Shown piece after piece: positions 9,346-31,549 of a DNA stretch of 64,000 nucleotides (positions within the stretch are counted from its first letter, which is position 1; every line of letters starts with the position of its first letter). The notes beneath the pieces are model-generated. The model was not told the origin of the DNA. It saw only the letters and a program-made list of their open reading frames with translations, and did not search any database. This DNA comes from Vibrio aerogenes (GTDB taxonomy: Bacteria > Pseudomonadota > Gammaproteobacteria > Enterobacterales > Vibrionaceae), in contig NZ_AP024861.1 in NCBI RefSeq assembly GCF_024346755.1, positions 3,658,001-3,722,000 of the forward strand, read 5' to 3'. The translations under genes and the position numbers were made by a program.

Positions 9346-12300
9346 TTACACCCGGGGAACTTCGGCCAGAGAAAAGTCCTCTCTGGCCAGCGTTAAGTTC
9401 GGGTTATAGCAAGGATCCTGAAGCAACAGCGTTCCCCAGCGATTTTGCATATATTCCACTTCTTTTTGAAAACGGGCAATTTTCTCTGGTGTATCTTCGA
9501 AGCCACGGGTTTTTGACTCGTAGTGATATAATTCCGCATAAGGTGTCCAGACATTGAAATAACCCGCTTCCTGAACTCTCAGACAAAAATCAATATCATT
9601 AAATGCAACACTCAGATTTTCAGCATTGAGCCCGCCAAGTTCATCAAAGATTTCTTTCCGAATCACCAAACATGCCGCAGTCACCGCTGAAAAATTCTGT
9701 GGCACAATCGCCCGGCATGAATAGCCCGGCATACCCTTGGGCAAATGTTTATGGGCATGTCCTGCAACACCACCCACCAGAATCACACCGCCATGTTGCA
9801 AGGTATCATCCGGATACCACAATCTTGCGCCAACCGCCCCGTTTTCCGGTTGAATCGCATAACCAACCATTTCCGTCAACCAGTCAGGTGTAATCACTTC
9901 AATATCATTGTTTAAAAGCGTAATGATGTCACCACTGGCAGCTGCAGCCGCCTTATTATTCAGTGCAGAATAATTGAAAGGACTGTCATCACGAATCACG
10001 CTCACCCGTTCATCTTTTTCAGATAAATTTCGTAAATAATCGAGCGTATCTTTACAATCAGAACCATTATCGACAATGATAATCTCATAATTTGGATAGG
10101 TTGTTTTTTCCAGGACTGATTCAAGACAAACCGATAAAACATCCAACCCGTTTCGGGTCGGAATAATAATACTGACTTTTGGCGCATCAGCCGGAATCTG
10201 ATATTGCACCCGCGCGTAATGACGTTCAGGATGCCGGGAGACAACCGCAATTTTTTGCTGGCGCTGTAAATGCTCTTCTACCGCTTTTAGCCCGGCTTCT
10301 AACGCGTAAGGTTTTTCTTCTTCATCGACCGCAGTACTCCCTTCGATTGCCCGCCAGTGATATAAAATTCGCGGAATATGAGCAATCTGATGTTGACGAA
10401 TATTTTCAACAAACCGGAGCGTAAAGTCCCAATCCTGAGCCCCTTCAAAGCCCGTCCTGAACCCACCAATTTCTCTGGCCAGTTCGGTGCGGTAAACCCC
10501 CAGATGAGAAACATAGTTCTGGCTGAGTAACAACGCTGGATTCCAGCCCGATTTGAAGTTTGGATCATAGCGGGTCACACCATCGGCCGTAATTTTATCT
10601 TCATCGGAATAAATCATGGCCACATCTTTCTGTTCGAAAATCTTTTCAGAAACCCAAAATAACGCATCCGGTGCTAATTTGTCATCGTGATCCATCAGCG
10701 CAATAAACTCACCTTCAGCGATTTCCAGTGCGCTGTTAGTCGTTCTGGAAATATGACCATTATCTTCACGCTTTATCACTTGAATTCTGGCGTCTTTCTC
10801 AGCGTATTCGGATAAGACTTGCCACACTTTCGGATCGGTTGATGCGTCATCGGCAATACATAACTGCCAGTTCGGATAAATTTGAGCCCGAACAGACTCA
10901 ATCGCCTCTGTAAGATAAGCGACTGGCGGATTATAGACGGGCATTAATATAGAAATCAGTGGTAAGTTATTCAGGCTTTCAACCCGCTTTTTCATCTCTG
11001 ATCTTTGCAAATCAGAAACTGTGCCATAACGCTCCAGCCATTGACCATAATCAATCAATGCTTCTTGTTGTGCTTTATAACGTAACCCACTCAAACCTTG
11101 TTGCCGAAGTACACGAATCACTTTCTTTGTCAGGCTGACAATGCCACCGTGCTTTTGCACCAAGGCTGGTATGCCCGATGCCCTTTCCAGCAATACTTTC
11201 GCCTGACGAACAGGCTTGGTGATTCTCCATGAGGTCGAATGATAAACCGCATTTAAGGCATGACGGTGCTGTTCAATTTCATCATGCAGACGTAATCGCT
11301 CTTTCTGTGTTTCTTCAATATATTCAGCTTTCGCTGCTTTCTCATCATGAAGTGCCTTTTGATATTCAGCCAACTCTTGCAATGAATCACTTAAACGGCC
11401 ATGCGTGTCCCTTATCTCGGTACGTAACTTCTCGATTGAAATATTTAATTCCGCCTGACGATTCCGGGAATCGATCTGCAACTGTTCACATCTGAGCCCG
11501 GAGTGCTTTAGCTGATCTTTGATCTCAGTATTCAAAACACGAGATTCAAAAAGTGCCATCACTGTGTCACGAACCATCAACCAATGTTCTTTCTGCACTT
11601 CAAGGGAAGACTTTAAACTTTCCTGAAGTTCTGCACTGTATTCTGTTTCAAACCATTGCTCCAGTGAAAATGCCTCATGAGCTAATCGTTCCAGCAACAG
11701 GTGATATTCCGGCACCGGCTGAAATGCGTCAGAATCCCCCTGCAGATCTGTCGCAGACGTCATGCTATGGTTTAATGAACGATCAATAAATTGCTTACAA
11801 TAGTCATTTAACACTGTCTGGGACACATCGGAAATATCCAGAAATGACTTCAAATCATCCAGCACCAGAGAAGGAGACGTGATGAGTTGCTCGAATGTCA
11901 TCCAATGTATGGATTCTCCCTTTAAGCGAGGCAACTGAACCGCAGTATGCATTAACCACAGAAGATAAGAATGACGATGTGAAAAGCAATTTCGCTGATG
12001 TAACGAACGACTGATATCAAGAGGATTTCGGTGAATAAAAATATAGTCAGCGTGAATATTTCCTGTACGGAAAACTTCTTGCCAGAAAGATAGCAGAAAA
12101 GGCGTTCTCGGATCTTTAAATCCCCATAAAGGATACATCTGAACTCTTTGAGTCACCAAAGTCACAGCATCGTCAAGTAATGAAGCGATCATTGGATCAT
12201 TAAAGTTAATTTCAGGCTGTTGTGGTGTAAACCACATCAACCCCAAATGCCCGAGTAATTTTTCATTGATGGCAACAATATCCAGGTCTTCCCAGTGTCC

Positions 12301-12477
12301 TTTGGGATTGAACTCTCCTTCAGGCATCAGGTTTTCACTTAAAGAAACACCCAATACATTTAACGCTTTAGTCAGCGCACTGGTACCACTTCGGTGCATG
12401 CCCAGCACAACAACAACACGTCTGGATTTTTCTGAATCGCGGGTCGCAGACAAATTTTCATTCATAGGTGATTTCAT
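9346..12477 (-). CDS. Fusion protein: sulfotransferase - coiled coil - two GT2 glycosyltransferase domains
   Basis: A 1043-residue multidomain enzyme. Residues about 20-275 form a PAPS-dependent sulfotransferase-type P-loop domain (GMHRSGTSAL at 26-35, IHRNPLDISRSL near 148-159). Residues about 316-412 are a coiled coil. A YHSTSWRITKPVR linker (412-424) leads to a first GT2 domain (about 505-740; ISILMPVYN, DHDD at 596-599) and a second one (about 766-1020; SIIIPTRNG, LNNDIE at 855-860, a later NDIDF box). It should both extend and sulfate one glycan in the cytoplasm before export. The gene begins 7 bases after the stand-alone sulfotransferase gene ends, in the wzt operon. The start could also be the ATG four codons in. 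Acceptor and sugar are unknown. Confidence 0.88.
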   Translation of the reverse strand: MKSPMNENLSATRDSEKSRRVVVVLGMHRSGTSALTKALNVLGVSLSENLMPEGEFNPKGHWEDLDIVAINEKLLGHLGLMWFTPQQPEINFNDPMIASLLDDAVTLVTQRVQMYPLWGFKDPRTPFLLSFWQEVFRTGNIHADYIFIHRNPLDISRSLHQRNCFSHRHSYLLWLMHTAVQLPRLKGESIHWMTFEQLITSPSLVLDDLKSFLDISDVSQTVLNDYCKQFIDRSLNHSMTSATDLQGDSDAFQPVPEYHLLLERLAHEAFSLEQWFETEYSAELQESLKSSLEVQKEHWLMVRDTVMALFESRVLNTEIKDQLKHSGLRCEQLQIDSRNRQAELNISIEKLRTEIRDTHGRLSDSLQELAEYQKALHDEKAAKAEYIEETQKERLRLHDEIEQHRHALNAVYHSTSWRITKPVRQAKVLLERASGIPALVQKHGGIVSLTKKVIRVLRQQGLSGLRYKAQQEALIDYGQWLERYGTVSDLQRSEMKKRVESLNNLPLISILMPVYNPPVAYLTEAIESVRAQIYPNWQLCIADDASTDPKVWQVLSEYAEKDARIQVIKREDNGHISRTTNSALEIAEGEFIALMDHDDKLAPDALFWVSEKIFEQKDVAMIYSDEDKITADGVTRYDPNFKSGWNPALLLSQNYVSHLGVYRTELAREIGGFRTGFEGAQDWDFTLRFVENIRQHQIAHIPRILYHWRAIEGSTAVDEEEKPYALEAGLKAVEEHLQRQQKIAVVSRHPERHYARVQYQIPADAPKVSIIIPTRNGLDVLSVCLESVLEKTTYPNYEIIIVDNGSDCKDTLDYLRNLSEKDERVSVIRDDSPFNYSALNNKAAAAASGDIITLLNNDIEVITPDWLTEMVGYAIQPENGAVGARLWYPDDTLQHGGVILVGGVAGHAHKHLPKGMPGYSCRAIVPQNFSAVTAACLVIRKEIFDELGGLNAENLSVAFNDIDFCLRVQEAGYFNVWTPYAELYHYESKTRGFEDTPEKIARFQKEVEYMQNRWGTLLLQDPCYNPNLTLAREDFSLAEVPRV

Positions 12478-12484: not shown

Positions 12485-13237
12485 TTATTTAATATCAGAT
12501 TGGCGAAACTGACGAACAAACTGTATTTCATCTTTTAATTTCCAGCGGGCATAAGCCCTTGCCAGACAATCCGTCAGATTCTTTTTCCGGTAACTCCCGG
12601 AAAATACAGCTTCAGGTTCGGTTTCATAATATGGAATGTTCAGGAATGCACAAATGCTGCGCATGGTATCATGATGGGAATAACGCAAGTCATCATTATG
12701 CAGAATCAGTACATTTTCTCTGGAAAATGCAGCGTATATCGCTTCAACTTGTTGCTGAAAACGGCCACGTTCCAGATAAGATGCCCAACGGGCAGGGGAA
12801 GTCCATTCCCTTCGGGAATCATATGCCATACTCAAACGGTCAGACTCTTTCAGAAAAGCCCGAAGCATAGGCAAAGATTCATCTCCTCGATTCGTTTCCA
12901 TCATATATTGAGAAACCGCTCTTTCTACCGGATCACGAACCATAAATATCACTTTGGTATCAGGGCTATAGTTAGCAATCAGGGTGAGTAATTCACTCCA
13001 GTAACCATAGATAGGTGTTGCATCACAAGCATAGGTTTCTGACCGTGAATCGGCGAAAAAATCCTGATAAGCAAGATCAAGTTGGCCAAAGTCAGTCGGT
13101 TCAATATCAGGATGATCAAAAATATGGGCTTCTTTGCGTTTTGGCAAATAAATATCAGGATGCTGTGCAAGGAAATGAGCCAAAGCACTTGTACCACACT
13201 TTTGCCCGCCCAGAATATATAAATTAGGACGTTTCAT
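12485..13237 (-). CDS. Stand-alone sulfotransferase
   Basis: Cytoplasmic enzyme of 250 residues predicted to transfer sulfate from PAPS to a carbohydrate. The 5'-phosphosulfate-binding loop is GGQKCGTSAL (9-18), and the 3'-phosphate-binding region is VRDPVERAVSQY (near 98-109), as in heparan/chondroitin-type and bacterial exopolysaccharide sulfotransferases. Its start overlaps the end of wzt by 14 bases, so the two are translationally linked, and the fusion transferase follows closely. The context points to sulfation of the glycan that Wzm/Wzt exports. The position sulfated cannot be read from the sequence. Confidence 0.88.
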   Translation of the reverse strand: MKRPNLYILGGQKCGTSALAHFLAQHPDIYLPKRKEAHIFDHPDIEPTDFGQLDLAYQDFFADSRSETYACDATPIYGYWSELLTLIANYSPDTKVIFMVRDPVERAVSQYMMETNRGDESLPMLRAFLKESDRLSMAYDSRREWTSPARWASYLERGRFQQQVEAIYAAFSRENVLILHNDDLRYSHHDTMRSICAFLNIPYYETEPEAVFSGSYRKKNLTDCLARAYARWKLKDEIQFVRQFRQSDIK

Positions 13238-14534
13238 GAATTATTTCACTGGAAATCGTTTGAATCATATCAACAGCACCGGTCATATGAGTGCTTTGTT
13301 CAACAACAGTAAACATGGCTGCATCAACACCACGATGAAGAAATTGTCTTTCTCCTTCAACTAAGGCTGAACAACCACAGTTCAGAAAATAGCTGCCGTT
13401 TGGAAGCTGACAGGTAAATTTAAACCGCATTTCAACTTCCTGCCCTGCTGCGACATAAGGGATACGTAACTGATGATCCCGAATCGATGTCCCACCTGCC
13501 AGTTCAAATCCTGAGACTGTTTTAATCATCATGCCGGCCCCCACTTCAAACGCTTCTCTGTGAAAAGAAATCCGGTATACATATTCATAAACATCACCAG
13601 CCGTCAGTAAATTGACCCGCTCCTGGCACAAATTCTCGATATGAGGATCGGATATTTCAGCCCCTTGATTTTGATACCAGACACTGGATGCTGGCTGTAA
13701 CGATGGGTCATATGTACCAGAGGGGAGTTGAGTTTCGTCTTCTTGCTTTGTTTTTGTTACTTCGCTTTTTGCCTGACCAGATTGAATCAAGCTTCGATAT
13801 TCATCACGTTCAGAGCCATGCAAATGCAGTAACTTATGGTATTGCTGCACCACATCTTTAGGCGTTCCTTCCATCAACAATTCACCATGATCAAGCAGGA
13901 TTGCCCGGTCACACAACTCGATTACCTGTCCCGCTGAATGAGAGACAAACAACAATGTTACGCCACGCGCCTGCAGCTGTTTCAGCTTCGCATGACATTT
14001 ACGCTGAAAAGCGTCATCTCCAACAGCCAGCGCTTCATCGACGATCAAAATGTCTGGATCAATATGCATCACCACTGAAAAGGCCAACCGCAACATCATC
14101 CCACTTGAATAAGACTTGACCGGCTGATCAATAAAATCACCAATATCAGCAAATGCCAGTATTGCATCAAACTGAGCTTCAACCTGCTGATGAGTCAGCC
14201 CCAACAACTGTGCATTAAAATAGACATTTTGCCTGCCGGTAAATTCAGGATTAAACCCCGACCCCAATTCCAGCAATGCGGCAATTCGCCCCTGAACCTG
14301 AACCTGTCCGGAATCGGGTGTCAATACACCGCTGATAATTTGCAGCAGTGTTGATTTACCACTGCCGTTGTGACCAACAATACCCAGTGTTTCACCAGGC
14401 CGAGCAGAAAAGTTGATGTTTTGTAATGCATGAAAACGCGGCCCGGATTTGTGTGGCCAAATAGCATCTCTTAATCGTTGCCAGGGAGATGCAGCTAAAG
14501 AAAAACTTTTATTGATTTGTTCAACAATAATCAC
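13224..14534 (-). CDS. wzt: Wzt, ABC-transporter ATPase with C-terminal glycan-binding domain
   Basis: ATPase subunit of an ABC exporter that flips finished, lipid-linked polysaccharide across the inner membrane. In 436 residues it shows Walker A GHNGSGKST (54-62), signature SYSSGMML (141-148), Walker B DILIVDEA (161-168) and the H-loop His199. The C-terminal part, about 290-430, is the beta-sandwich extension of Wzt proteins that reads the chain end. The start is GTG with no clear Shine-Dalgarno. Its permease partner Wzm is encoded 12.8 kb away at 27286-28071, beyond the whole T2SS operon, which is unusual because wzm and wzt are normally adjacent. Confidence 0.93.
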   Translation of the reverse strand: MIIVEQINKSFSLAASPWQRLRDAIWPHKSGPRFHALQNINFSARPGETLGIVGHNGSGKSTLLQIISGVLTPDSGQVQVQGRIAALLELGSGFNPEFTGRQNVYFNAQLLGLTHQQVEAQFDAILAFADIGDFIDQPVKSYSSGMMLRLAFSVVMHIDPDILIVDEALAVGDDAFQRKCHAKLKQLQARGVTLLFVSHSAGQVIELCDRAILLDHGELLMEGTPKDVVQQYHKLLHLHGSERDEYRSLIQSGQAKSEVTKTKQEDETQLPSGTYDPSLQPASSVWYQNQGAEISDPHIENLCQERVNLLTAGDVYEYVYRISFHREAFEVGAGMMIKTVSGFELAGGTSIRDHQLRIPYVAAGQEVEMRFKFTCQLPNGSYFLNCGCSALVEGERQFLHRGVDAAMFTVVEQSTHMTGAVDMIQTISSEIIHETS

Positions 14535-14643: not shown

Positions 14644-14667
14644 TAAAGGAGCCATATGGCTCCTTTA
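14644..14667 (-). terminator. Terminator of the S-layer-like gene
   Basis: TAAAGGAGCCATATGGCTCCTTTA is a perfect palindrome 33 bases past the stop; on the minus strand it is followed by TTTATTTTATTTA. It should uncouple the highly expressed gene from wzt, leaving wzt to use read-through or a promoter in 14535-14643. Confidence 0.8.
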
Positions 14668-14700: not shown

Positions 14701-16641
14701 TTATAGAGTGAAATCAACAACGTTTGTGTGAACGCCTTTAGTACCGTTTTGAATGTCGATACCACTGCTATCTTTCTTCTTAACAGCCACTTCACCTTGG
14801 TTTGTTTCAACTTCAAACACCATACGAGCCTGGCGAGAAGGAGTTACAGTGATACCCAATTGGTCAGCAATAGTTGCTGGGTTCAGAGTCACAGCACCTT
14901 TTGAAGGAAGCGTTACAGAAAGAACCTGACGGTCAGCCAGTACAGTGCTCTCTGCATTTTCACCTGCAGCGTGTGCATCGTATTCCCAAACTGTAACGTA
15001 AATTTTACCACCATCTTCAGGAAGAACACCAGAGATATCACGGATGTGAATTGTGTTCGCAGAAGTTGTACCAGTCAGGATAGTATCGAACTTCATACCA
15101 TCACGGGTAAAGATAAACAGATTATTGATTGTATCTGAGAAATCTTCAAATGTAGCTTGATCATCACCATCAATAGCTGCAGTTACACTGATTGATTGTG
15201 CTGGAATTGGTGTTTCATTATCAGCTTCAACATAAATCTTACCCAGATTAGTCCAAGCAGTATTCTGAGCTGTACTTAACGAACGAGCCGAAGCATCCAA
15301 AGTTTTTACACCTTCAAGAACATCGCTTGCCAGAGTTGTTGTAGCAGATGTTTTAGCTGCGTTTACAGTCCAGCCAGATTCTGTACCGTCTTTCAGGAGC
15401 AAGTCACCATCAGTATCAACACGGAATGGTGACAAGTCACCAGTCAGAGTCAGATTAACTTTGTTCAACTGAATGTTCTGGTTAGATGTTTTGTTAATCA
15501 GGTCTAAACCTGTTGCTTCAACATCTTCATCATCAGCAGCAGCGTCACTATCTATATCATAAGAGTTAAAGCCAGTAGAAACCAGCGCAGTTGCTTCACC
15601 AGAATCTGTCAGAGTCAAGTCAAACAATTCACCCAACTTGAACAATGCTGCAGTAGATTCAGGGTCAGCCGAGTAAGAAGCATTTTTCAATGCACCAATT
15701 TGTAGGAATACATTTCCAGAAGTAGCAGACAAATCAAAGATCTGGTTTGCTTCTGTAAGCTGGAAGTTTACAACAGTATTTGCACCAACTAAAGCTTCAA
15801 GCGCATCACCAACAGCAACTGTTGTACCAGCAACTGAAGTAGCACTTGCTTCAAGGTAAGCTTGCGTAGCCGCAGTGTTAGCACCTGTGCCTGTTACTTC
15901 TGTTGCAAGGTAGTCTGCACGAGCAGAATCAGAAGTCAATGCGTCATAACTAGCTTGATTGATGACTGTTGGAGCAGTACCAGAAGTACCGTTAATATCA
16001 TCTGGCAATGTAGCCCAAGTATCAGGGAAATCAAAACTTCTTGCTACCACAGTAACTTCAGTAATAGTCGCATTACCAGGAGAAGCAAGCTGAATCATTT
16101 CATTGGTTGAACCAGCAGTTTGCTTCAGAGCTAAACGCAAACGTGTACCATCTTCATCGATATCATGAACAATAGTTTCTGTATTTGTGTTTTCAGTGTA
16201 CTTGAAAATTTTAGTTAAATCAGTCTCACTTACAGCAGTTGTGCCAGTGGTAAGAATAACACCACCCAGAGCTGTGGTAGTTGCCAAATACAACTCAATC
16301 TCAACATTACCAGTAGTCAAGTTAGAGCTCAGGTTACCACTAGCATCAGTAGTCAGCCACTGGTTTACCTCTGCTTCATTAAACTTAGCACCACCAGTTA
16401 ATTGCAATGTGATGAAACCATTTTGTTTCAGGTCACCATCAACACCAAACTCAGCAGCCACTTCTTCTTCGGCAGTTGAGTAAGAAAGAACAGCATCTTT
16501 AGTTACAGTGGCCAGTGTAGTTGTTGTCATCTCGTTTGATGAACTGATAGGAAGACCGCCGTAATACAGATCGATGTCAGCAAATGCTGGTGCAGCTGTA
16601 ACAGTTGCCACTGCAGCGGCGATAAGAGTTTTCTTTAACAT
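14701..16641 (-). CDS. Secreted S-layer-like surface protein (possible Slr4-family member)
   Basis: A 646-residue exported protein. The ATG at 16641 has AAGGA ten bases upstream and gives the signal peptide MLKKTLIAAAVATVTAAPAFA, cleaved before DIDLYYGG. The mature protein has no cysteine, is acidic, and is rich in Thr, Ala, Asp, Gly and Asn, with repeated beta-type stretches: the profile of self-assembling S-layer proteins. No enzyme motif is seen. It follows the T2SS secretin gene, has a long leader and its own terminator, all fitting an abundant secreted product. The Slr4 S-layer family, described from Pseudoalteromonas tunicata with Vibrio homologues, is the closest known type I can suggest; this rests on composition and context, not a search. 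Confidence 0.68.
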   Translation of the reverse strand: MLKKTLIAAAVATVTAAPAFADIDLYYGGLPISSSNEMTTTTLATVTKDAVLSYSTAEEEVAAEFGVDGDLKQNGFITLQLTGGAKFNEAEVNQWLTTDASGNLSSNLTTGNVEIELYLATTTALGGVILTTGTTAVSETDLTKIFKYTENTNTETIVHDIDEDGTRLRLALKQTAGSTNEMIQLASPGNATITEVTVVARSFDFPDTWATLPDDINGTSGTAPTVINQASYDALTSDSARADYLATEVTGTGANTAATQAYLEASATSVAGTTVAVGDALEALVGANTVVNFQLTEANQIFDLSATSGNVFLQIGALKNASYSADPESTAALFKLGELFDLTLTDSGEATALVSTGFNSYDIDSDAAADDEDVEATGLDLINKTSNQNIQLNKVNLTLTGDLSPFRVDTDGDLLLKDGTESGWTVNAAKTSATTTLASDVLEGVKTLDASARSLSTAQNTAWTNLGKIYVEADNETPIPAQSISVTAAIDGDDQATFEDFSDTINNLFIFTRDGMKFDTILTGTTSANTIHIRDISGVLPEDGGKIYVTVWEYDAHAAGENAESTVLADRQVLSVTLPSKGAVTLNPATIADQLGITVTPSRQARMVFEVETNQGEVAVKKKDSSGIDIQNGTKGVHTNVVDFTL

Positions 16642-19195: not shown

Positions 19196-19692
19196 TTGTT
19201 TTTTGATTCCTGATTGTCTGATTTTGACTCAAAAGTGGGAAAAAGTTGCCAGAGACGAATATCTCCATCACGATTCTTTGTTGTCACCGTATTACCGGAG
19301 ATCTGAGTGACCATTCCCAGATTGGAAAGATTCTCACCAACCCCGATAATCATTTTTTTATCCTGACTGATAAACACTGCTTTCAGTTGCTTCCCTTCAC
19401 GAACAATACTTCCTAACTGATAATCATCTGCTGGTTCCGGCTTCTTCGCTTCCGTTCCGTTATTGCCAGATGAAACTGTCAAAGTCCGATCCAATGAAAA
19501 AATATTTCCCGAGGGAATCTGAACCACGGATTGATTATCAGAAATTTTTACAGGAGCGGGATGAATAACTTTATCACCACCATCGACATGCGACAGTGAC
19601 CAATAAGTAAATAGCAGATGTAACAACAACACACCGGCTAAGGCCGAAATTAGCTTTGGATGAGGAATAAAAAAGCTCTTACTCATAATCAT
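19192..19692 (-). CDS. GspC/XpsN-like inner-membrane T2SS protein
   Basis: Likely the link between inner-membrane platform and secretin. The 166 residues have one membrane segment (about 13-33) and a periplasmic HR-like region, including IVREGKQLKAVFISQDKKMIIGVGE-type spacing and a closing RLWQL, as in GspC. There is no PDZ or coiled-coil C-terminal domain, so it is shorter than canonical GspC. Its place between gspM and gspD is that of xpsN in Xanthomonas, which does the GspC job. Starts overlap by ATGA on both sides. The assignment is from position, topology and the HR-like pattern; sequence identity is weak. Confidence 0.7.
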   Translation of the reverse strand: MIMSKSFFIPHPKLISALAGVLLLHLLFTYWSLSHVDGGDKVIHPAPVKISDNQSVVQIPSGNIFSLDRTLTVSSGNNGTEAKKPEPADDYQLGSIVREGKQLKAVFISQDKKMIIGVGENLSNLGMVTQISGNTVTTKNRDGDIRLWQLFPTFESKSDNQESKNK

Positions 19693-23150: not shown

Positions 23151-23556
23151 GGATAGTCTCCTGAACACCCATTTTCTCAAATTCAAAGGAAAAATCTTTG
23201 CCACGCAGACGATACGACACACTAATCCGGTACATTTGCGCGTACTCTTCGATCAATTCGTTAGCCGTCTTCATTTGAAGCAAGGGACTGATTGGGCGGG
23301 CCTGCCATTTAAAATAAACATCTCCCAGATTCCCCTGACCGCCCTGCTTTATCGCCGGATTGATCTGACTTAATTTCACAAATAACGACTGTTCAGTCAT
23401 AATTTTCAATTGGCGCTGATTAATCTTTTCACCAACGACAGTGCTCTGCTGAAAACTTTGGAAAATCACAGTAAAACCTGCGGATAAAATCGCCAAAGCA
23501 ATCAATACTTCAATCAGCGTAAAACCTCTCTGCAATTCAAACTTAATAGCGGGCAA
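23143..23556 (-). CDS. gspI: GspI, minor pseudopilin (TTG start)
   Basis: Minor pseudopilin of about 137 residues with the cleavage motif LQRG|FTLIEVLIALAILSAG. No ATG lies near the motif in this frame. A TTG at 23556 has GGGAG eight bases upstream and gives an 11-residue leader; it overlaps the end of gspH by 14 bases. The open frame extends further upstream inside gspH, but that part is out of family. GspI nucleates the pseudopilus tip with J and K. Confidence 0.85.
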   Translation of the reverse strand: MPAIKFELQRGFTLIEVLIALAILSAGFTVIFQSFQQSTVVGEKINQRQLKIMTEQSLFVKLSQINPAIKQGGQGNLGDVYFKWQARPISPLLQMKTANELIEEYAQMYRISVSYRLRGKDFSFEFEKMGVQETIRG

Positions 23557-23959
23557 AGTTGACGCTCCCGTCAGGCATGGATAAGGTAACTTTCCACCTG
23601 ATTTTTTCAGGCAGGACAAGTAAATGAACCTCACCTTGTTGGGTAAAACCATCAGGCCGGATAACAAATTGATCATCCGGATGATTTGGCAGGATTTCCA
23701 GCTGACTTTTCTGTGCCAGAATTTGCCATTGCTCATTGTCACTGTCAAAAATAAAACTCTCACCGGCTTGATTATACTTATAGGCTTCACGGCGGACTTC
23801 AGACCAGAATGTCTCAAGTTTTTTCTTTTGTTTCAGCTGTGAATAGCTTCCCCATAACCTGGGAACAACCACAGTGCTCATCAGCGCAATCAAAGCAATC
23901 ACGATAATGAGCTCAATTAAAGTGAAGCCCGAATGATTTCTCAGCCGGTGATTCATCAT
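23543..23959 (-). CDS. gspH: GspH, minor pseudopilin
   Basis: Minor pseudopilin of 138 residues with a short leader MMNHRLRNHSG and then FTLIELIIVIALIALMSTVVVP, including Glu5. The globular part is of GspH size, and an LPEKIRWKVTL-like strand region is near the end. Start and gspG stop overlap as TAATG, indicating coupled translation. It probably links the GspG shaft to the I-J-K tip. Confidence 0.9.
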   Translation of the reverse strand: MMNHRLRNHSGFTLIELIIVIALIALMSTVVVPRLWGSYSQLKQKKKLETFWSEVRREAYKYNQAGESFIFDSDNEQWQILAQKSQLEILPNHPDDQFVIRPDGFTQQGEVHLLVLPEKIRWKVTLSMPDGSVNFARY

Positions 23960-24390
23960 TATTTCACACCAACATCCTGATCTTCGCCACTTCCGCCTTC
24001 TTTATCATCCCGGCCAAGAGAATACAAAGAAAACTCATAATCAGGGTTCAGTTTATAGTGGTAAGCGTTATTCCATGGATCCAGCGGAATGTCTTTTGCC
24101 AGGTATGGGCCATTCCACATCGATTGATTACCATCATCCGGCGCTTCCATCAGTGCTTTCAAGCCTTGTTCAGTCGATGGGTAATTGCCCATATCCAGAC
24201 GATAGGTTTTCAATGCTGATGTCAACAGCTCAATTTGCGCATTAGCAATTTTTGTTTTTGATGAACCCACCTGCTTAAACAGCTTCGGTCCAACCAACCC
24301 CGCAAGCAAAGAGATCAGTACAAGAACAACAAGCAGTTCGATTAAGGTAAAACCATTCTGTTTGGTTTGGGTTGTTGGTGCTGTTTTCAT
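23959..24390 (-). CDS. gspG: GspG, major pseudopilin
   Basis: Shaft subunit of the T2SS pseudopilus, 143 residues. The ATG at 24390 has GAGGA five bases upstream. The cleavage site is QNG|FTLIELLVVLVLISLLAGLVGPKLF with Glu5. The family hallmarks GNYPSTEQGLKALMEAP and DPWNNAYHYK are present, and the C-terminal SLGRDDKEGG...D region fits the calcium-binding site of GspG. It is the most clearly T2SS-specific (rather than type IV pilus) gene in the operon. Cleavage requires a prepilin peptidase, which is not encoded in this window. Confidence 0.96.
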   Translation of the reverse strand: MKTAPTTQTKQNGFTLIELLVVLVLISLLAGLVGPKLFKQVGSSKTKIANAQIELLTSALKTYRLDMGNYPSTEQGLKALMEAPDDGNQSMWNGPYLAKDIPLDPWNNAYHYKLNPDYEFSLYSLGRDDKEGGSGEDQDVGVK

Positions 24391-24406
24391 GACTATCCTC
24401 AAACAC

Positions 24407-25588
24407 TTAAAAATTAATATCGTTCACCGAGATGATACCGGAAATCAGGATAATCATGATACTGCCCACGATACCCCCCATCACCACAATCACCAACGGT
24501 TCTAAAATGGATAAAAAACGTTTCAAACCTTTGGATAAACGCCTTTCATATAAGTTATTGATTTCCCGGAAACAAGGAACCAAAGATGCGCCTGCTTCCC
24601 CGGTTTTAATCAACCGCCGGACCATCGCCGGGAATAAATCAAATTCTCCCAGAGAATCAGCCAGCCCTTTACCTTCCCGCACACCCGTCACAACATAGCC
24701 TAAACGCTTTCTCAGCGTTTCATCTGAGATACCGTTACGGGTAATTTCCACCGATTCGACCAGTTCAACACCAGACTCAAGCAGACGTTGCATGCTGCCG
24801 GAAAACTGGACAATATTCCAGGCATCCACCAGTTCTCTGAACATCGGAATCGCAGACAGCCCCTGAATCAGTGACTGAAGCAAAGAACCATAACGAAATC
24901 CGTAATACAGGCCGCCGGCCAACGCCACCAGCCCCGCAGAAATAATCGTGATATTGTCATTTAAAAACCGGGAAACAGACAACAACTTGCCCAGCATACC
25001 CGCATCTTTGGCATCCTGTACCATGGTTTCAAAATTAGGAATCACATACATAAACATGAAGAACAGAACCACAACACACACAATTAAAAGAAATGCCGGG
25101 TAAGTCAGTGCTGACTTCACTTCTGTGATTAATTGTTCTTCACGCTCAATCCGTTCAGAAATGTTAAATAATGCTTCTCCCAGTTTACCGCTGGCTTCAC
25201 CCAGTTTGAGCATTGATGCAGCATAAAAAGGGAAAACTTCAGGCTGCGCAGCAATCGCATCGGACAAGCTGGACCCACTCTCAACATCATAGTGCAAACG
25301 CTTCAGGGCAACTTTTAAGACATCATCTTCCGTATTTTCATACAAAGAAGCCATGCACAAATCGAGCGCCATGCCACTTTCCCGCAGTGTGGCCAGTTCC
25401 CGCAGTGTGGTAATCAATGCTTCCCGGCTGACCTTCTTATTACTTTTCGCCTTATACGGCGAGAGCATCACCACCTGTCGCTGCTGATCAGCCAACATGC
25501 GGCGGGCTTGCTGCTCGCTGTCAGCACTGATCCAGCCATCGGTTAGTGAGCCGTCTTTACGCCTTGCAACAAATTTAAATTGCTTCAT
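24407..25588 (-). CDS. gspF: GspF, polytopic inner-membrane platform protein
   Basis: Core inner-membrane protein of the T2SS, 393 residues, the usual length. Two GspF domains each precede or include membrane helices: the first around 60-180 (LRELATLRESGMALD, FYAASMLKLGEASGKL) and the second around 265-385 (FSGSMQRLLESGVELVESV, RRLIKTGEAGASLV). It couples ATP hydrolysis by GspE to pseudopilus growth. The start lies two bases after the gspE stop. Confidence 0.95.
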   Translation of the reverse strand: MKQFKFVARRKDGSLTDGWISADSEQQARRMLADQQRQVVMLSPYKAKSNKKVSREALITTLRELATLRESGMALDLCMASLYENTEDDVLKVALKRLHYDVESGSSLSDAIAAQPEVFPFYAASMLKLGEASGKLGEALFNISERIEREEQLITEVKSALTYPAFLLIVCVVVLFFMFMYVIPNFETMVQDAKDAGMLGKLLSVSRFLNDNITIISAGLVALAGGLYYGFRYGSLLQSLIQGLSAIPMFRELVDAWNIVQFSGSMQRLLESGVELVESVEITRNGISDETLRKRLGYVVTGVREGKGLADSLGEFDLFPAMVRRLIKTGEAGASLVPCFREINNLYERRLSKGLKRFLSILEPLVIVVMGGIVGSIMIILISGIISVNDINF

Positions 25589-25590: not shown

Positions 25591-27255
25591 CTAGCCTACC
25601 ACTCTCAGCACTTCATCCAGTGTGGTTTCACCCAGAGCGGCTCTTAATAAAGCATCTTGCTTCAACGTCCGCATTTTCTGCTTTTCGACGACCTGATGCA
25701 GATCTTCCATCTCCAGTTCAGCCGTTTCTTCAGCCGACCAGCCTAGCAGCTCAAAAATCGCCAGACGACCATGATAGCCGGTGTCATTGCAATGTTCGCA
25801 ACCATGCGCCTGATACCAGACAGGTGCAGAAGGCAGCAGTTCACCCCATTTCTGATCCACTTCGGCAAACCCAAGTTGCTGCGCTTTCACCTCACCACTC
25901 ATATCTGGTGTCCGGCAATGCGGGCAGAGCCGTCTGACCAGACGCTGTGCCATAATACCGACCACCGTTGATTTAATCAGGTAGTCAGGAATACCAATAT
26001 CTTTCAGACGAATAAAGCTGCTTGGTGCATCATTGGTATGTAAGGTGGACAAAACAAAGTGACCGGTCAGTGAAGACTGAATCGCAATTTGCGCGGTTTC
26101 TTTATCCCGCATCTCACCAATCAGCATAATATCCGGGTCCTGACGCAGCGCAGAACGGAGAACACTGGCGAAAGTCAGCCCGATTTCACTGTTGACCTGA
26201 ATCTGAGTCAGACCTTTCATCTGATACTCAACCGGATCTTCAACGGTGATGATTTTCGTTTGCTCGTCATTTAATTGTCCAAGCAAAGTATACAGAGACG
26301 TTGTTTTACCACTCCCCGTGGGGCCTGTGATCAAAAAGATGCCTGTTTTCTTCAGTAGAATATCCTGAATAATTGCTTTTTGATCGGGCAGCATATCCAG
26401 TTCTTTCGCCTGCTGGGAGGTATGATGCTGTTCATTGGCGAGCAGACGCAATACGGCGTTTTCACCATAAACAGTAGGTGTGGTCGCCACCCGTATATCC
26501 ACCTGCAACCCGGATAACCGGACCCGAATCCGGCCATCTTGTGGTAAACGTTTCTCTGAAATATCCAGCCCGGCCATGAGCTTGATTCTTGACAGAATCG
26601 CGGCATGCTGTGCGATTCCCGGCTGATCGACCGTCCGAAGGACACCATCAACCCGATAGCGAACCAGAAACTGCTGTTTATTCACCTCAAAGTGAATATC
26701 CGAAGCATTCTCTTTAATTGCGCGCTGAATACACTCGTTCACAAACTTCACTACAGGTGCAGAACTACTTTCCTGGCTGTTCAGCGTCGAGCTCTGAGAT
26801 TGTTGCTCGTCAACATTACTCAGTAATTGACGAAGTTCATAATTCGAGCAAAGCACCGGGACCGTCTTCAGATGGTGTTCCCGCAGGATGGTTTCAAAAA
26901 TAAAATCATCCCAGATATCAGCCTGAGCAACGAATACTTCCTGTTGGTTATTTTGATACAGTGGATAAGCTTGTTGCCGCTGCCACCACTCAGAAGGAAA
27001 TAGCTTGAGTGCCAGCTCATTAGAGGGTAAGTCCCCATCACAATGTTCTTCAATCACATCGGACAATAATGGTAAATCCAGCTGTTCACTCAAAGCCATT
27101 AAGACATCTTGTTCTGAACATAAACCATTCGAAATGCACAATTCACCGAATCTGGCCCGCTCACCAATACTGGCATTTTCCTGCAACTGTAGTATTTGCT
27201 CGATATCTTCATCGGTGATCAGAAGTTTTTGTTTAAGAAGCTCACCTAATCGCAT
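25591..27255 (-). CDS. gspE: GspE, T2SS assembly ATPase
   Basis: Cytoplasmic hexameric ATPase that powers pseudopilus assembly. The 554 residues have an N-terminal GspE/PilB domain (about 1-150), Walker A GPTGSGKTT (311-319), an Asp box, Walker B DPDIMLIGEMRD, a His box LSTLHTNDA, and the zinc-binding pairs CPHC and CEHC typical of GspE/PilB. It is the first gene of an E-F-G-H-I-J-K-L-M-C-D operon, the order known from Xanthomonas xps and unlike the C-to-N order of the common Vibrio eps operon. It lies 30 bases after wzm, so it is probably transcribed from the rml-wzm promoter as well. Confidence 0.95.
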   Translation of the reverse strand: MRLGELLKQKLLITDEDIEQILQLQENASIGERARFGELCISNGLCSEQDVLMALSEQLDLPLLSDVIEEHCDGDLPSNELALKLFPSEWWQRQQAYPLYQNNQQEVFVAQADIWDDFIFETILREHHLKTVPVLCSNYELRQLLSNVDEQQSQSSTLNSQESSSAPVVKFVNECIQRAIKENASDIHFEVNKQQFLVRYRVDGVLRTVDQPGIAQHAAILSRIKLMAGLDISEKRLPQDGRIRVRLSGLQVDIRVATTPTVYGENAVLRLLANEQHHTSQQAKELDMLPDQKAIIQDILLKKTGIFLITGPTGSGKTTSLYTLLGQLNDEQTKIITVEDPVEYQMKGLTQIQVNSEIGLTFASVLRSALRQDPDIMLIGEMRDKETAQIAIQSSLTGHFVLSTLHTNDAPSSFIRLKDIGIPDYLIKSTVVGIMAQRLVRRLCPHCRTPDMSGEVKAQQLGFAEVDQKWGELLPSAPVWYQAHGCEHCNDTGYHGRLAIFELLGWSAEETAELEMEDLHQVVEKQKMRTLKQDALLRAALGETTLDEVLRVVG

Positions 27256-27285: not shown

Positions 27286-28071
27286 CTATAAGACATCTGC
27301 AAAGCCAGGTCTTAGCCGACAAAACAATTTGTAACTAAAAATGCATCCCAGAACACTTGCCAGTAATAACCAAAGCATGTGTTTAAAATCAGGCGCATAG
27401 CCATACAAAATATCCCGAACCGAATCTGCTACCGGGCTGATTGGGTTCAGATAAATAATTTTCACCAACATATCTGGTGCAGAATGAACCGAGAAGAATA
27501 CTGTACTGGTAAATAATAATACAGTAATTAATACCGGCATCATCTGAGAAATATCACGGAGAAAGACTCCCAAAGCGGCAACCAGATAAGCAATGGCAGT
27601 CAAAGTCACGACATAAATCGCAATAATAAATGGCAGATAAATCAGGCCCTGAAATTGATGGATATACCCCTGAACCAGCCCATAAACAAAGGCCATTGCC
27701 AGTCCCAGCAAATAGTTGACACCAGAACTGGCGATCGTGACTAATGGTAACATTTTAACCGGAAAACGAACCTTTTTGATCAGATTGGTATTATTACGAA
27801 TCACATTGCTCGATGAAGTCAGCACCTCGGCCATGTAGCCATGTGTCAAAATACCAATAAATAACATTAAACCATAATCGGCCTGAGCCTGATCAGCCAT
27901 ATGCCATTTCGCTTTAAATACAGCCAGAAATACCGTTGCGTAAATGGCCAGCATCAATAAAGGTGTGACCAGATTCCACAGGAAACCCAGCAAAGTACCC
28001 TGATACTTTGCCTGAATCTCTCTGCGAACCATCGACTTAAATAAAGAAACATACTGAGCGGAGATCAACAT
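27286..28071 (-). CDS. wzm: Wzm, ABC-transporter permease for polysaccharide export
   Basis: Membrane subunit of the ABC-2 polysaccharide exporter family, 261 residues, about six membrane helices. Diagnostic parts are the N-terminal amphipathic region SLFKSMVRREIQAKYQGTLLG, FLRDISQMMPV and the family's C-terminal RPGFADVL. The ATG at 28071 has AGGA six bases upstream; a GTG eight codons earlier is less likely. It forms the inner-membrane channel with the Wzt ATPase encoded at 13224-14534. It sits between rmlC and gspE in one transcriptional direction. Confidence 0.93.
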   Translation of the reverse strand: MLISAQYVSLFKSMVRREIQAKYQGTLLGFLWNLVTPLLMLAIYATVFLAVFKAKWHMADQAQADYGLMLFIGILTHGYMAEVLTSSSNVIRNNTNLIKKVRFPVKMLPLVTIASSGVNYLLGLAMAFVYGLVQGYIHQFQGLIYLPFIIAIYVVTLTAIAYLVAALGVFLRDISQMMPVLITVLLFTSTVFFSVHSAPDMLVKIIYLNPISPVADSVRDILYGYAPDFKHMLWLLLASVLGCIFSYKLFCRLRPGFADVL

Positions 28072-28123
28072 ATCTATTCCTGCATCCTGCCACACAGAAC
28101 GTATGACAGATGCCTAAATGAAA

Positions 28124-28657
28124 TTAAATCGACGAAAAGGAGCAACCTTGCTTATCTTTTTCAGAGAGTTGTGCATCGCCCTGAATTTGCCAGTCAATCT
28201 TTAAGTCCGGATCATTCCACAAAATACAGCGCTCAGATTCCGGGTGGTAATAATCCGTGGTTTTATACAAAAACTCGGCGGCATCAGACAGAACACTAAA
28301 CCCATGCGCAAGGCCCGCCGGAATCCACAGCTGCCGTTTATTTTCAGCACTCAGGTTAACGGTGACAACTTTACCAAACGTTGGGGAATCCTTTCTGATA
28401 TCAACCGCCACATCGACGACTTCTCCGGACACACAACGAACTAATTTACCCTGTGCATGTTCAGCCTGATAATGAAGTCCTCTGACGACATTCTTAACAG
28501 AGCGGGAATGATTATCCTGAACAAATTCAACTTGCTGACCGACAGCCTGCTCGAATTTCTGATGATTGAAGCTCTCAAAGAAAAACCCCCGGTCATCTCC
28601 GAATACGCGGGGTTCGATGATAAATACACCTTCAATTTCAGTTGGGATTGCTTTCAT
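28124..28657 (-). CDS. rmlC: RmlC, dTDP-4-dehydrorhamnose 3,5-epimerase
   Basis: Third enzyme of dTDP-L-rhamnose synthesis, a cupin-fold epimerase. The 177 residues begin MKAIPTEIEGVFIIEPRVFGD and contain FFFESFN, the NVVRGLHYQ box with the catalytic His, and WIPAGLAHGFSVLS. The ATG at 28657 follows the rmlA stop by one base and has GAGAG nine bases upstream. Full length. Confidence 0.96.
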   Translation of the reverse strand: MKAIPTEIEGVFIIEPRVFGDDRGFFFESFNHQKFEQAVGQQVEFVQDNHSRSVKNVVRGLHYQAEHAQGKLVRCVSGEVVDVAVDIRKDSPTFGKVVTVNLSAENKRQLWIPAGLAHGFSVLSDAAEFLYKTTDYYHPESERCILWNDPDLKIDWQIQGDAQLSEKDKQGCSFSSI

Positions 28658-28658
28658 T

Positions 28659-29537
28659 TTAATCATCTCTCTCAACAAGTTTCAGTAAATACTGACCATA
28701 CGCATTTTTTGCCAGTGCCTGGGCACATTCAAGAACTTTCTCTTTATTAATAAAGCCTTTTCTGTAGGCAATTTCTTCAGGGCAGGCGACTTTCAGTCCC
28801 TGACGCTGTTCAATCGTCTGAATGAAATTACTTGCACCAATTAAGCTTTCATGGGTTCCGGTATCAAACCACGCAAAACCTCTGCCCATTTTGGCGACAG
28901 ACAACGTATTTTGTTCAAGATAAATCCGGTTCAGGTCCGTAATCTCATACTCACCTCTTGCGGAAGGCTTTAAGCTCTTGGCTATTTCCACAGCCTGAGC
29001 ATCGTAGAAATATAATCCGGTAACCGCAAAATTACTCTTTGGCTGTGCTGGCTTTTCTTCCAGTGAAATGGCCTGATCAGCCGAATCAAATTCCACCACA
29101 CCATAGCGTTCCGGATCGGTCACATGATACGCAAATACAGTTGCACCGTTTTCCTGAGCAGCAGCAGTTTCAAGCTGCTTCTGCAAATCATGCCCATAGA
29201 AGATGTTATCACCAAGAATCAGTGCACTCGGCGCCCCATTCAAAAATTCTTCCGCAATCATGAACGCCTGGGCTAAGCCTTCAGGTTTCTCCTGAACCGC
29301 ATATTGCAGTGAGATTCCCCACTGGCTGCCATCACCCAAGAGCTGCTCAAAGCGCGGCGTATCCTGAGGGGTACTGATAATTAATATTTCACGGATATCG
29401 GCCAACATTAATGTTGTCAGCGGATAATAAATCATTGGCTTGTCGTAGATCGGCAGTAGCTGTTTACTGACTGCCATTGTTACAGGATAGAGCCGGGTCC
29501 CTGAACCACCAGCTAAAATAATCCCCTTTCTGTTCAT
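28659..29537 (-). CDS. rmlA: RmlA, glucose-1-phosphate thymidylyltransferase
   Basis: First enzyme of dTDP-L-rhamnose synthesis, making dTDP-glucose. It has 292 residues and the nucleotidyltransferase motifs [14 protein letters not shown] (5-18), KPMIYYPL and LGDNIFYG, plus EKP and the [15 protein letters not shown] stretch typical of RmlA. ATG overlaps the rmlD stop as ATGA. Full length. Confidence 0.97.
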
Positions 29538-30466
29538 GATGTTGATCCTAATGTTTCTGCAAGCATCCGACTCACACCTAACTGCCAGTCAGGTAAGGTC
29601 AGATGAAATGTTTTTTCGAAATGACTGGTATTCAGCCGGGAGTTTCCGGGACGAGGGGCAGGCACAGGAAACTCTGAGGTTGCAACAGGCGTTACATCCT
29701 TCACCGCCAGTTCAATACCGGATGCACGGGCGACGTCAAATACATATTTTGCATAGTCAAACCAGGTCGTTTCACCCTTAGCGACTAAATGATAGAGCCC
29801 GTAACAATCCGGGTTGTCAGAACCGTGTTGGCTGTCAGAACCATATTTGTTGTAAAAACAGTGCCGGACAGCCAGCGCTGTACAGTCTGCCAACAATTCT
29901 GCACTGGTCGGCGCACCATGTTGATCAGCAACAATCGATAGTGTTTCTCTTTCTTTTGCTAATTTCAGCATGGTTCCGGCAAAATTTTTGCCTCTGGAAG
30001 CAAACACCCAACTTGTTCTGAAAATCAGATGTTTCGGACAATACTGCCGGATGAGTTCCTCACCCTGTAGCTTCGTCTGCCCATAGACATTAAGAGGTGC
30101 GACGGCATCCGTTTCCTGCCATGGCGTTTGCCCTGAACCATCAAATACATAATCGGTAGAATAGTGGACAAGTAAAGCACTCACTTCATGGGCAGCTTTT
30201 GCAATCACACCAACCGTATCCGCATTCACTGTCATTGCGGTTTGTTGATCAGTTTCTGCCTGATCGACTGCAGTATAAGCAGCTGCATTGACAATCACGT
30301 CCGGCTTCAGGTCCAGAATCGTTTGATGAATCCCTTCCGGGTTGAGAAAGTCACCACAGTAATTCTGACTGTCAGAATCCAGCGCAATCACCTCGCCAAA
30401 ATAACTCAGGGCACGTTGAAGTTCCCAACCCACCTGACCATTTTTTCCGAATAGCAGAACTCTCAT
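29534..30466 (-). CDS. rmlD: RmlD, dTDP-4-dehydrorhamnose reductase
   Basis: Last enzyme of dTDP-L-rhamnose synthesis, an NAD(P)H-dependent extended SDR. Of 310 residues, [11 protein letters not shown] is the nucleotide-binding start, YSTDYVFDG and YGQTKLQGE supply the Ser/Thr and Tyr-X3-Lys active site. It starts immediately after the rmlB stop (TAG then ATG) and overlaps rmlA by four bases, so the operon order is B-D-A-C. Confidence 0.96.
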
Positions 30467-31549
30467 CTACTCATCTCCGTATTGCTGGTGAATCCAGTCC
30501 TGATAGTCACCACTTTGAATATGCTCAACCCAGTCCATATTGTCCAGATACCATTGAACAGTTTTCATGATACCTGATTCAAAAGACTCGACCGGTTTCC
30601 AGCCCAGCTCTCTGGCAATTTTACCCGAATCGATCGCATAGCGGCGGTCATGTCCAGGCCGATCATCAACGAAGCGTATTTGTTCACGATAAGCTGTATC
30701 CTTTGGCACCAACTGGTCCAGAATGTCACAAATGGTATGCACAACTTCAATATTCTGCTTCTCATTATGACCACCGATGTTATACGTCTCATCCACTTCC
30801 CCCTGAGTCGCAACCAGCACTAACGCTCTGGCATGGTCTTCAACATAAAGCCAGTCGCGTATTTGATCACCGCTGCCATAAACAGGCAAAGGCTTACCGG
30901 CAAGCGCATTCAGAATCACCAGCGGAATCAGTTTTTCAGGGAAATGATAAGGCCCATAATTATTGGAACAATTGGTCACAATCGTTGGCAAACCATAAGT
31001 CCGGTGCCATGCTCTGACCAGATGATCACTGGATGCTTTTGACGCAGAGTAAGGACTACTTGGTTTATAAGCGGTTGTTTCTTCAAAAAGTGGTAAAGAC
31101 GCACCGGGCTCCACATCACCAGGATGAGGTAAGTCACCATAAACTTCATCAGTTGAAATATGATGAAAGCGAAAAGCAGCCTGCGCTTCAGAAGAAAGAG
31201 TCGACCAGTAACCCCGGACGGCTTCCAATAACGTGTAAGTACCGACGATATTGGTCTGAATAAATGCTGCCGGCCCGTCGATCGAGCGATCCACATGGCT
31301 TTCAGCCGCCAGATGCATCACGATTTGAGGTTGAAAGGCTTCCAACGTCTGCTTCATGGAAGCCGCATCACAAATATCGGCCTTCACAAAACGATATCGT
31401 TCTGAATCCTGAATTTCTTTTAAAGACTCCAGATTACCGGCATAAGTCAGTTTATCCAGATTTAACACGTCATGATCTGTATCTTTAATCAGATGCCGAA
31501 TAACTGCAGAACCAATGAAGCCTGCACCACCAGTGACTAAAATTCGCAC
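30467..31549 (-). CDS. rmlB: RmlB, dTDP-glucose 4,6-dehydratase
   Basis: Second enzyme of dTDP-L-rhamnose synthesis. The 360 residues show [11 protein letters not shown] at the start, STDEVYGDL, and [10 protein letters not shown] with the Tyr-X3-Lys pair. The start is GTG with AGGTG just upstream. It heads the long minus-strand unit that runs through rmlDAC, wzm and the T2SS genes; the 114-base gap upstream should carry the promoter, but I see no clear boxes and no ops/JUMPStart element there. Confidence 0.97.

Follow-up and report, generated by a model that had tools for sequence, protein, structure and literature searches.

We analysed a window of 64,000 nucleotides from Vibrio aerogenes (contig NZ_AP024861.1, forward-strand positions 3,658,001 to 3,722,000), in which a minus-strand block at 9346-31549 joins O-antigen genes to a type II secretion system (T2SS) and a gene for a surface-layer (S-layer) protein of the VapA family. 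The initial annotation of this DNA had placed rml genes, wzm, eleven T2SS genes, a secreted acidic protein, wzt and two sulfotransferase-bearing proteins in one co-directional run, and every gene that it named was confirmed as an open frame at the given place and on the given strand. In transcription order the block reads rmlB-D-A-C, wzm, spsE-F-G-H-I-J-K-L-M, a GspC-like gene, spsD, vapA, wzt, a gene for a 250-amino acid (aa) sulfotransferase and a gene for a 1043-aa protein. The features, with the matches on which each assignment is based, are as follows.

30467..31549, minus strand: rmlB, deoxythymidine diphosphate (dTDP)-glucose 4,6-dehydratase, dTDP-rhamnose supply (open frame; solved dTDP-glucose 4,6-dehydratase 1g1a, 1.4e-190)
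29534..30466, minus strand: rmlD (PF04321, 4.8e-103)
28659..29537, minus strand: rmlA (PF00483, 2.3e-77)
28124..28678, minus strand: rmlC (PF00908, 2.6e-76)
27286..28095, minus strand: wzm, membrane half of the O-antigen ATP-binding cassette (ABC) exporter (PF01061, ABC2_membrane, 5e-24)
25591..27255, minus strand: spsE, T2SS ATPase (PF00437, 1.5e-128; in one clade with the SpsE of ten other vapA loci, 100/100)
24407..25588, minus strand: spsF (PF00482, 6.2e-50)
23959..24402, minus strand: spsG, major pseudopilin (PF08334, 1.7e-34)
23543..23959, minus strand: spsH (N_methyl signature and position)
23143..23556, minus strand: spsI, start uncertain (N_methyl signature and position)
22443..23222, minus strand: spsJ, start uncertain and probably shorter (N_methyl signature; weak GspJ matches)
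21479..22456, minus strand: spsK (T2SSK_1st, 0.00029, and NF037980, 7e-8, both below cut-off)
20330..21445, minus strand: spsL, tracer of this T2SS type (GspL_C, 0.0019, weak and below cut-off)
19689..20330, minus strand: spsM (NF040576 XpsM, 2.1e-9, below cut-off)
19192..19692, minus strand: 166-aa small inner-membrane gene, GspC-like (no family match; by position, as 'Orf2' of Aeromonas hydrophila AH-1)
17021..19195, minus strand: spsD, secretin with a lipoprotein-type N-terminus, ..VMFGC (PF00263, 1.7e-48; TIGR02517, 353.5 bits, cut-off 351.35; lipobox scan)
14701..16641, minus strand: vapA, S-layer protein, 646 aa (NF050048, 1.3e-250)
14644..14667, minus strand: terminator-like hairpin directly 3' of vapA, stem of 10 pairs
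13224..14534, minus strand: wzt, ATPase with C-terminal carbohydrate-binding domain (PF00005; PF14524, Wzt_C, 3.2e-24)
12485..13237, minus strand: stand-alone sulfotransferase, 250 aa (PF13469, 1.1e-14; PDB 3rnl, 3.6e-25; present in 11 of 11 vapA loci)
9346..12477, minus strand: 1043-aa fusion of a sulfotransferase domain (approximately 20-277), a helix (279-412) and two family 2 glycosyltransferase (GT2) domains (Pfam, alignment and AlphaFold2)

Neighbouring genes of the block overlap or lie no more than 33 bp apart, with the exception of vapA, which is set off by 379 bp upstream and 166 bp downstream. The hairpin that follows it has the longest stem of the terminator-like sites in the scanned region, which numbered 23 against 16.9 expected. 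On account of these gaps and the hairpin, vapA probably forms a unit of its own within the block. Promoter-like sites were not in excess (33 versus 36.6 expected), and exact matches to the RfaH/ops element GGCGGTAGNNT numbered zero in the window. The placement of the block in the position of an O-antigen cluster is supported by the lipopolysaccharide (LPS) core genes close by at 35111-42112, namely those for an O-antigen ligase and a 3-deoxy-D-manno-oct-2-ulosonic acid (Kdo) transferase together with two genes of the heptosyltransferase family.

The product of vapA, previously described only as S-layer-like, is a member of the VapA family of S-layer proteins, scoring 832.8 bits against the NCBIfam profile NF050048 (cut-off 200). 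The mature protein is acidic (isoelectric point (pI) 4.06) and contains no cysteine. A homologue search listed 58 proteins, the window's own included; relatives carry the name VapA-family S-layer protein and occur in Vibrio quintilis (72 % identity), V. vulnificus, V. cholerae, Salinivibrio, Aeromonas, Motilimonas and others. In an alignment of 18 proteins, residues 23-100 and 296-646 were well conserved, whilst residues from approximately 173 to 295 were variable (20 % mean identity). The locus as a whole is of the VapA type, in that a VapA-family gene stands beside a dedicated Sps T2SS between wzm and wzt. A SymProFold lattice prediction has been published for a 646-aa V. aerogenes S-layer protein (p4, 12.7 nm) and also covers a 642-aa V. 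quintilis S-layer protein (PMC11410804); judging from length and kinship, the former is probably the VapA of this window. In our own searches the VapA profile had no significant match in the PDB (best E 0.099). The structural model had a mean predicted local distance difference test score (pLDDT) of 72.9, and the PDB fold-search matches listed for it, with template modelling scores (TM-scores) of at most 0.27, were uninformative.

The T2SS and the layer protein were found in the same genomes. Of 329 genomes of the family, five encode VapA, and these same five were the ones that matched SpsL. Across a sample of the order, VapA matched in 7 of 394 genomes, six of them strongly (E <= 4e-96), and SpsL matched in nine, again six strongly (E <= 1e-27); the strong six were the same for both proteins, and the weak matches (VapA in G457, 1.1e-5; SpsL in G387, G398 and G484) were not counted as members. 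The V. aerogenes genome is in both samples, and together with Aeromonas salmonicida these genomes provide 11 distinct vapA loci from at least three families. Downstream of vapA, and on its strand, wzt and then the small sulfotransferase gene follow in all 11 loci. Upstream, spsE-spsD stand on the same strand in eight; a contig end falls between the T2SS and vapA in two (A. salmonicida and G352, in which spsD is on one contig, 2.7 kb from its end, and vapA on another, 0.7 kb from its end), and the half comprising the T2SS, wzm and rml is inverted in the remaining one (G364, Motilimonas). In ten loci wzm precedes spsE, the exception being G042, where a second wzt lies upstream. Recurrence in ten other genomes places the arrangement beyond chance. 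The co-occurrence of T2SS and layer protein, which had been proposed as a check on their linkage, thus held in both samples, and independent occurrence of the T2SS, the protein gene and wzm/wzt in most relatives, which would have spoken against it, was not observed.

With Wzm and a Wzt bearing a C-terminal carbohydrate-binding domain, the locus has both parts of an ABC-transporter O-antigen pathway. A family-wide search with Wzt placed the five vapA-positive genomes on top (62-100 % identity), followed by the second copy of G042 (55 %) and then by vapA-free genomes at no more than 54 % over most of the length; vapA-free matches reached up to 58 % only where confined to the ATPase half. Among the matches listed, 30 Wzt loci and the second wzt of G042 were examined. 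All seven vapA-free loci that were read contain rml genes, wzm and wzt with nothing between the last two, and because wzm directly precedes wzt they look like the pre-insertion state of the site. In a tree of whole proteins with 18 unlinked sequences, the 11 vapA-linked Wzts formed one clade (support 100/100), as they did when the ATPase (89/98) and the carbohydrate-binding domain (88/96) were taken separately. Eight loci (L084-L091) absent from this first tree were added in a second, with 26 unlinked sequences, and the outcome was the same (100/99). SpsE of the vapA loci, A. salmonicida included, likewise formed one clade (100/100), and the trees of vapA, the small sulfotransferase, spsE and wzt agreed in their main groups. 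The Wzt and SpsE clades and these matching groups show that the sps genes, vapA, wzt and the gene for the small sulfotransferase have been inherited jointly, a finding that is read directly from the genomes, as are the gene content, family memberships and conserved order. In G042, two wzt genes (C12:38127-39395 and 20637-21923) flank the sps-vapA block, and only one of them falls in the vapA-linked clade; the pair may be a vestige of the block's insertion.

The Sps T2SS comprises GspD, GspE, GspF and GspG together with minor pseudopilins and inner-membrane platform genes, with K, L and M scoring below their cut-offs. The count of eleven T2SS genes (E-F-G-H-I-J-K-L-M-C-D) is correct if the GspC-like gene is accepted by position. 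We take the gene order to be like that of the Xanthomonas Xps system and the secretin to be like HxcQ/XpsD. A prepilin peptidase gene was not found within the block; four Peptidase_A24 genes lie elsewhere in the genome, which thus has this T2SS component, and one of the four (294 aa, C1:709701) is near a gene for a PilB-like ATPase. Canonical GspD and GspE are encoded separately, at approximately C1:206600-211600. The lipoprotein-type N-terminus of SpsD was recognized by a strict pattern in 9 of the 11 vapA loci and by eye in the other two (LMYGC and LLWGC), and was absent from the canonical GspD of the V. aerogenes genome (one of one). By presumed likeness to other lipoprotein secretins, this N-terminus suggests that SpsD may pilot itself to the outer membrane. 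In a tree of ATPases, those of S-layer T2SSs (VapA, Slr4 and E. calviensis) stood apart (94/93) from canonical GspE and from ATPases that we take to be PilB and MshE-like; long branches come together in this tree, and its sampling did not extend to the Xps, Hxc or NpdA systems, so a single lineage of all S-layer T2SSs is only a lead.

Two further observations concern secretion in this genome. SpsE contains an MshEN domain and matches an MshE-related cyclic di-GMP motif below its cut-off (34.8 bits; cut-off 38), so that cyclic di-GMP might have an influence on export of the S-layer. Of the six secretin genes in the V. aerogenes genome (G000 C1), three have extra Peptidase_A24 genes nearby, suggesting the presence of several Tad-type systems.

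The small sulfotransferase is related to the bacterial protein 3rnl and to heparan sulfate 3-O-sulfotransferases (eight of the 11 sequences were aligned). It follows wzt in 11 of 11 vapA loci versus none of the 18 unlinked Wzt sequences; being specific to vapA loci in this sample, it is part of the S-layer unit. Its likeness to the sulfotransferase domain of the 1043-aa protein is remote (hhalign E 2.3e-5, probability 76).

In the 1043-aa protein itself the N-terminal sulfotransferase match is below the Pfam cut-off (22.0 bits; cut-off 27), and its assignment draws on relatives. The protein has 623 homologues; from 120 listed, 29 were aligned with the window's own, and PF13469 (Sulfotransfer_3) matched at E <= 0.01 in 24 of these 30 (best 8.1e-12). 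AlphaFold2, run on the window's protein only, placed one 134-residue helix at 279-412 followed by two GT2 domains at high confidence. On sequence and model, the protein would thus have the succession of modifying domain, long helix and glycosyltransferase (GT) modules of WbdD/WbbB-type terminators, and we predict that it is a polymerase and chain terminator with a molecular ruler.

The neighbourhood of wzt points the same way. The 11 vapA-linked Wzts fall within a wider clade of 20 sequences (100/100 in the first tree, 100/99 in the second), and for 18 of these a protein with the motif GxxRSGTS is encoded no more than two genes after wzt (17 taken from the list of downstream genes, and that of G402 by direct search of the stretch). 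In the vapA loci one gene stands between wzt and the motif gene, and in G186 the distance from wzt is 616 bases. Outside the clade, next genes were readable for 16 of 17 sequences (all but G314) and encoded 14 methyltransferases (that of G166 called below Pfam cut-offs), one family 4 glycosyltransferase (GT4) and one coil without a clear family; a sulfotransferase family match was found in none of the 16. The N-terminal domains of the 18 motif proteins and that of G042 matched sulfotransferase families only, with Sulfotransfer_3 at E <= 0.01 in 16 of 19 (best 1.6e-8), and a profile built from the 19 retrieved 19 PDB sequences at E <= 0.01, all named sulfotransferases except for one polyketide synthase. 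Sixteen residues were invariant across the 19 domains, and the invariance of K121, P123, R124, R150 and S158 is not due to selection. Among the 30 homologues chosen without reference to the motif, G26, R29, G31, T32, S33, K121, P123, R124, R150 and S158 were again invariant, with S30 nearly so. The GxxRSGTS and R/S motifs presumably bind 3'-phosphoadenosine 5'-phosphosulfate (PAPS), and the sequence evidence favours a sulfotransferase as the identity of this domain. Certain motif proteins, such as those of Enterovibrio (388 aa) and Motilimonas (429 aa), stop behind a charged stretch rich in repeats, and others carry GT domains, as reported for known terminators.

In work on Klebsiella pneumoniae O-antigens every complex includes a protein that bears a coiled-coil ruler with the terminating enzyme at its distal tip, and chains are exported only once they have been terminated (PMC11231755); in Aquifex, the cap bound by Wzt is a methylated one (PMC9445017). 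Seen against these ruler-end terminators and cap-reading Wzts, and given the neighbour pattern in the Wzt clade and the 134-residue helix, the large sulfotransferase is a candidate O-antigen terminator. This suggests that sulfate would cap the chains and would not be placed on every repeat.

Several observations weigh against a sulfate cap or against the unity of the locus. The helix at 279-412 has a pLDDT of only approximately 50-66; a crude heptad test passed 6 of 19 motif proteins and was not discriminating; and the matches listed in a PDB fold search with the whole 1043-aa model were GT2-type enzymes. The 19 motif proteins were chosen by GxxRSGTS, making the invariance of G26 and R29-S33 among them true by construction. 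The Enterovibrio copy and the incomplete copy of G265, which is cut off, gave no sulfotransferase match when scanned whole, and the motif gene of G042 adjoins neither of its two wzt genes but lies elsewhere in the locus. The switch of neighbour from methyl to sulfate transfer is a single split in the tree, and the sequences on its two sides are not independent trials. As one clade, the vapA-linked Wzm proteins were recovered in 6 % of bootstrap trees. A. salmonicida carries both sulfotransferase genes, yet the authors who described its O-antigen report no such residue in the structure and assign no role to the gene (PMC4483657), and A. hydrophila AH-1 makes an S-layer without a separate sulfotransferase gene in its published gene table (PMC4413209). 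For these last two reasons the plain description of the glycan as sulfated in the initial annotation is not supported, and a predicted sulfate cap together with a sulfotransferase specific to vapA loci is the better reading.

Taken as a whole, we regard it as very probable that the block is a VapA-type S-layer locus with a dedicated T2SS, situated between wzm and wzt of an operon for an ABC-exported O-antigen that contains rhamnose; a sulfate cap is our reading of the sulfotransferase parts. We infer the export route, the anchoring and both sulfation steps as follows. VapA would reach the periplasm by way of its signal peptide and be exported by the dedicated Sps T2SS, whose lipoprotein-like secretin could reach the outer membrane unaided, and would then form a tetragonal lattice tethered to the O-antigen, as shown in Aeromonas. 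The GT2 domains of the 1043-aa protein would polymerize the O-antigen, whilst its N-terminal sulfotransferase, set off by the 134-residue helix, would cap the chain with sulfate when the growing end comes within its reach. Export through Wzm/Wzt would start with the reading of this cap by the Wzt C-terminal domain, and the stand-alone sulfotransferase would add a further sulfate serving the S-layer, possibly at the anchoring site. That sulfation is an undescribed chemistry of chain termination, that this Wzt clade reads the cap, that the second sulfotransferase makes an anchoring site and that the S-layer, its T2SS, Wzt and this sulfotransferase are inherited as one unit is a more tentative proposal, to which we give slightly less than an even chance.

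Two sulfotransferase genes directly after wzt could also mean, in line with the initial annotation, that the enzymes decorate the repeats, making the whole O-antigen a sulfated polyanion to which the layer protein binds, perhaps with calcium as the bridge. Marine bacteria such as Cobetia marina are known to have sulfated polysaccharides (PMC11766843), but A. salmonicida has both enzymes and no sulfate reported in its O-antigen, VapA is itself strongly acidic, and the order of modifying domain, long helix and GT modules is that of described terminators (PMC11231755); we consider this polymer unlikely. Composition and linkage analysis could miss a sulfate present only once, at the end of each chain, and in view of the A. 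salmonicida and AH-1 facts a single cap per chain fits better than a sulfated polymer.

A second possibility is that the S-layer genes use the O-antigen locus only as a landing site, in a region prone to exchange of surface genes, and have no special functional tie to the glycan. Merino et al. term the S-layer block an insertion (PMC4483657), and loci of the Slr4 S-layer family have a T2SS (six of six) without rml, wzm or wzt in the 20-30 kb read (none of six), so that the tie to an ABC O-antigen is not general. Yet the vapA-linked wzt genes, carbohydrate-binding domain included, are one clade across at least three families, the sulfotransferase dedicated to vapA loci follows wzt in every one of the 11 and at none of the 18 unlinked genes, and the Aeromonas layer is described as held in place by LPS (PMC4483657), which together make an uncoupled insertion rather improbable. 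Least probable, and very unlikely, is that VapA leaves by the ordinary T2SS and that the second system serves other exoproteins. The canonical GspD/GspE locus elsewhere in the genome would allow this, but strong matches to SpsL and VapA occur in exactly the same genomes, vapA is the sole obvious substrate gene beside the Sps T2SS, and the adjoining T2SS is reported to be essential for the layer in A. salmonicida (Noonan and Trust 1995, as cited in PMC10765051).

A parallel locus was observed in a vapA-free genome, G018 (L112:8433-18414 and L100:1076-9138; C2:196432-215137), where S-layer, T2SS and O-antigen genes also stand together. Its T2SS, several genes of which were assigned by position, is in E-to-D order and is followed by a gene for a secreted Slr4-family protein of 510 aa (37.7 bits; cut-off 25) and, downstream, by rml, wzm, wzt and a gene with the sulfotransferase motif. 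Since this locus holds an Slr4-family protein rather than VapA, the combination of S-layer, T2SS and ABC O-antigen genes seems to have arisen on at least two occasions, each time with another layer protein. Slr4 matched in 6 of 153 genomes of the order, with a T2SS beside slr4 in all six (L121-L132); rml, wzm or wzt was found in none of the six within the 20-30 kb read.

Other surface genes flank the V. aerogenes block. A polysialyltransferase-like gene (42097-43128) adjoins the Kdo transferase gene, and NeuB-family, aminotransferase, nucleotidyltransferase and related genes at 44419-53290 form a nonulosonate cluster adjoining the LPS core genes. At the other end of the block lies a gene for a 513-aa lipoprotein-like protein without a Pfam match (7573-9114), which has 90 % identity to its counterpart in V. 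quintilis and approximately 30 % to those in V. rotiferianus and Salinivibrio, whose genes precede rmlB.

The arrangement is known from Aeromonas and is not new. The O-antigen cluster of A. salmonicida A450 has vapA and the T2SS genes placed between its wzm and wzt, in the same order as here, namely rmlBDAC, wzm, spsE onward, vapA, wzt, a small sulfotransferase and a large GT protein (PMC4483657), and we found this order also on two A. salmonicida contigs, with the contig end between spsD and vapA. VapA is approximately 500 aa in A. salmonicida, in contrast to 646 aa here. The large protein is described as WbbB-like (PMC4483657), and its copy on contig L008 starts GMHRSGTS as in the window. 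Deletion of vapA in A. salmonicida removes the layer and spares the O-antigen, whilst deletion of rmlB or wzt removes the O-antigen (PMC4483657). This orthology with the Aeromonas A-layer lends support to the earlier proposal of a dedicated machine, in which the T2SS would export the layer protein and Wzm/Wzt the glycan that anchors it. The O11/S-layer locus of A. hydrophila AH-1 shares rmlBDAC, SpsE-F-G-H-I-J-K-L-M-Orf2-D and VapA, but differs in having a truncated wzm upstream and a complete wzm-wzt downstream, as well as in its sulfotransferase content as noted above (PMC4413209). Slr4 of Pseudoalteromonas (PMC7821379) and NpdA of Paracidovorax (PMC10765051) belong to other families of layer proteins, and their genes likewise adjoin a T2SS of their own. 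The SymProFold work concerns the protein lattice (PMC11410804), whereas the present analysis concerns the gene locus.

For the glycan, the nearest likeness is to WbbB of K. pneumoniae O12 and ORF6 of O7, which likewise combine a terminating domain, a coiled-coil ruler and C-terminal GT modules in one protein; the terminator in those proteins is a Kdo transferase or a methyltransferase-kinase, whereas here it would be a sulfotransferase domain (PMC11231755). In the open-access literature we found no paper joining a sulfotransferase to chain termination of an ABC O-antigen, and an earlier mention is possible. What appears to be new is a second type of sulfotransferase near wzt within one Wzt clade, which suggests a new mode of chain capping. 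If true, the sulfate cap would be a new cap chemistry in O-antigen export and could explain the unseen sulfate of A. salmonicida. The small sulfotransferase, given its restriction to vapA loci in this sample, is a concrete candidate source of the LPS-anchor feature that VapA recognizes. These results extend the Aeromonas-type system to marine Vibrio and relatives, with T2SS, S-layer protein, Wzt and sulfotransferase co-inherited.

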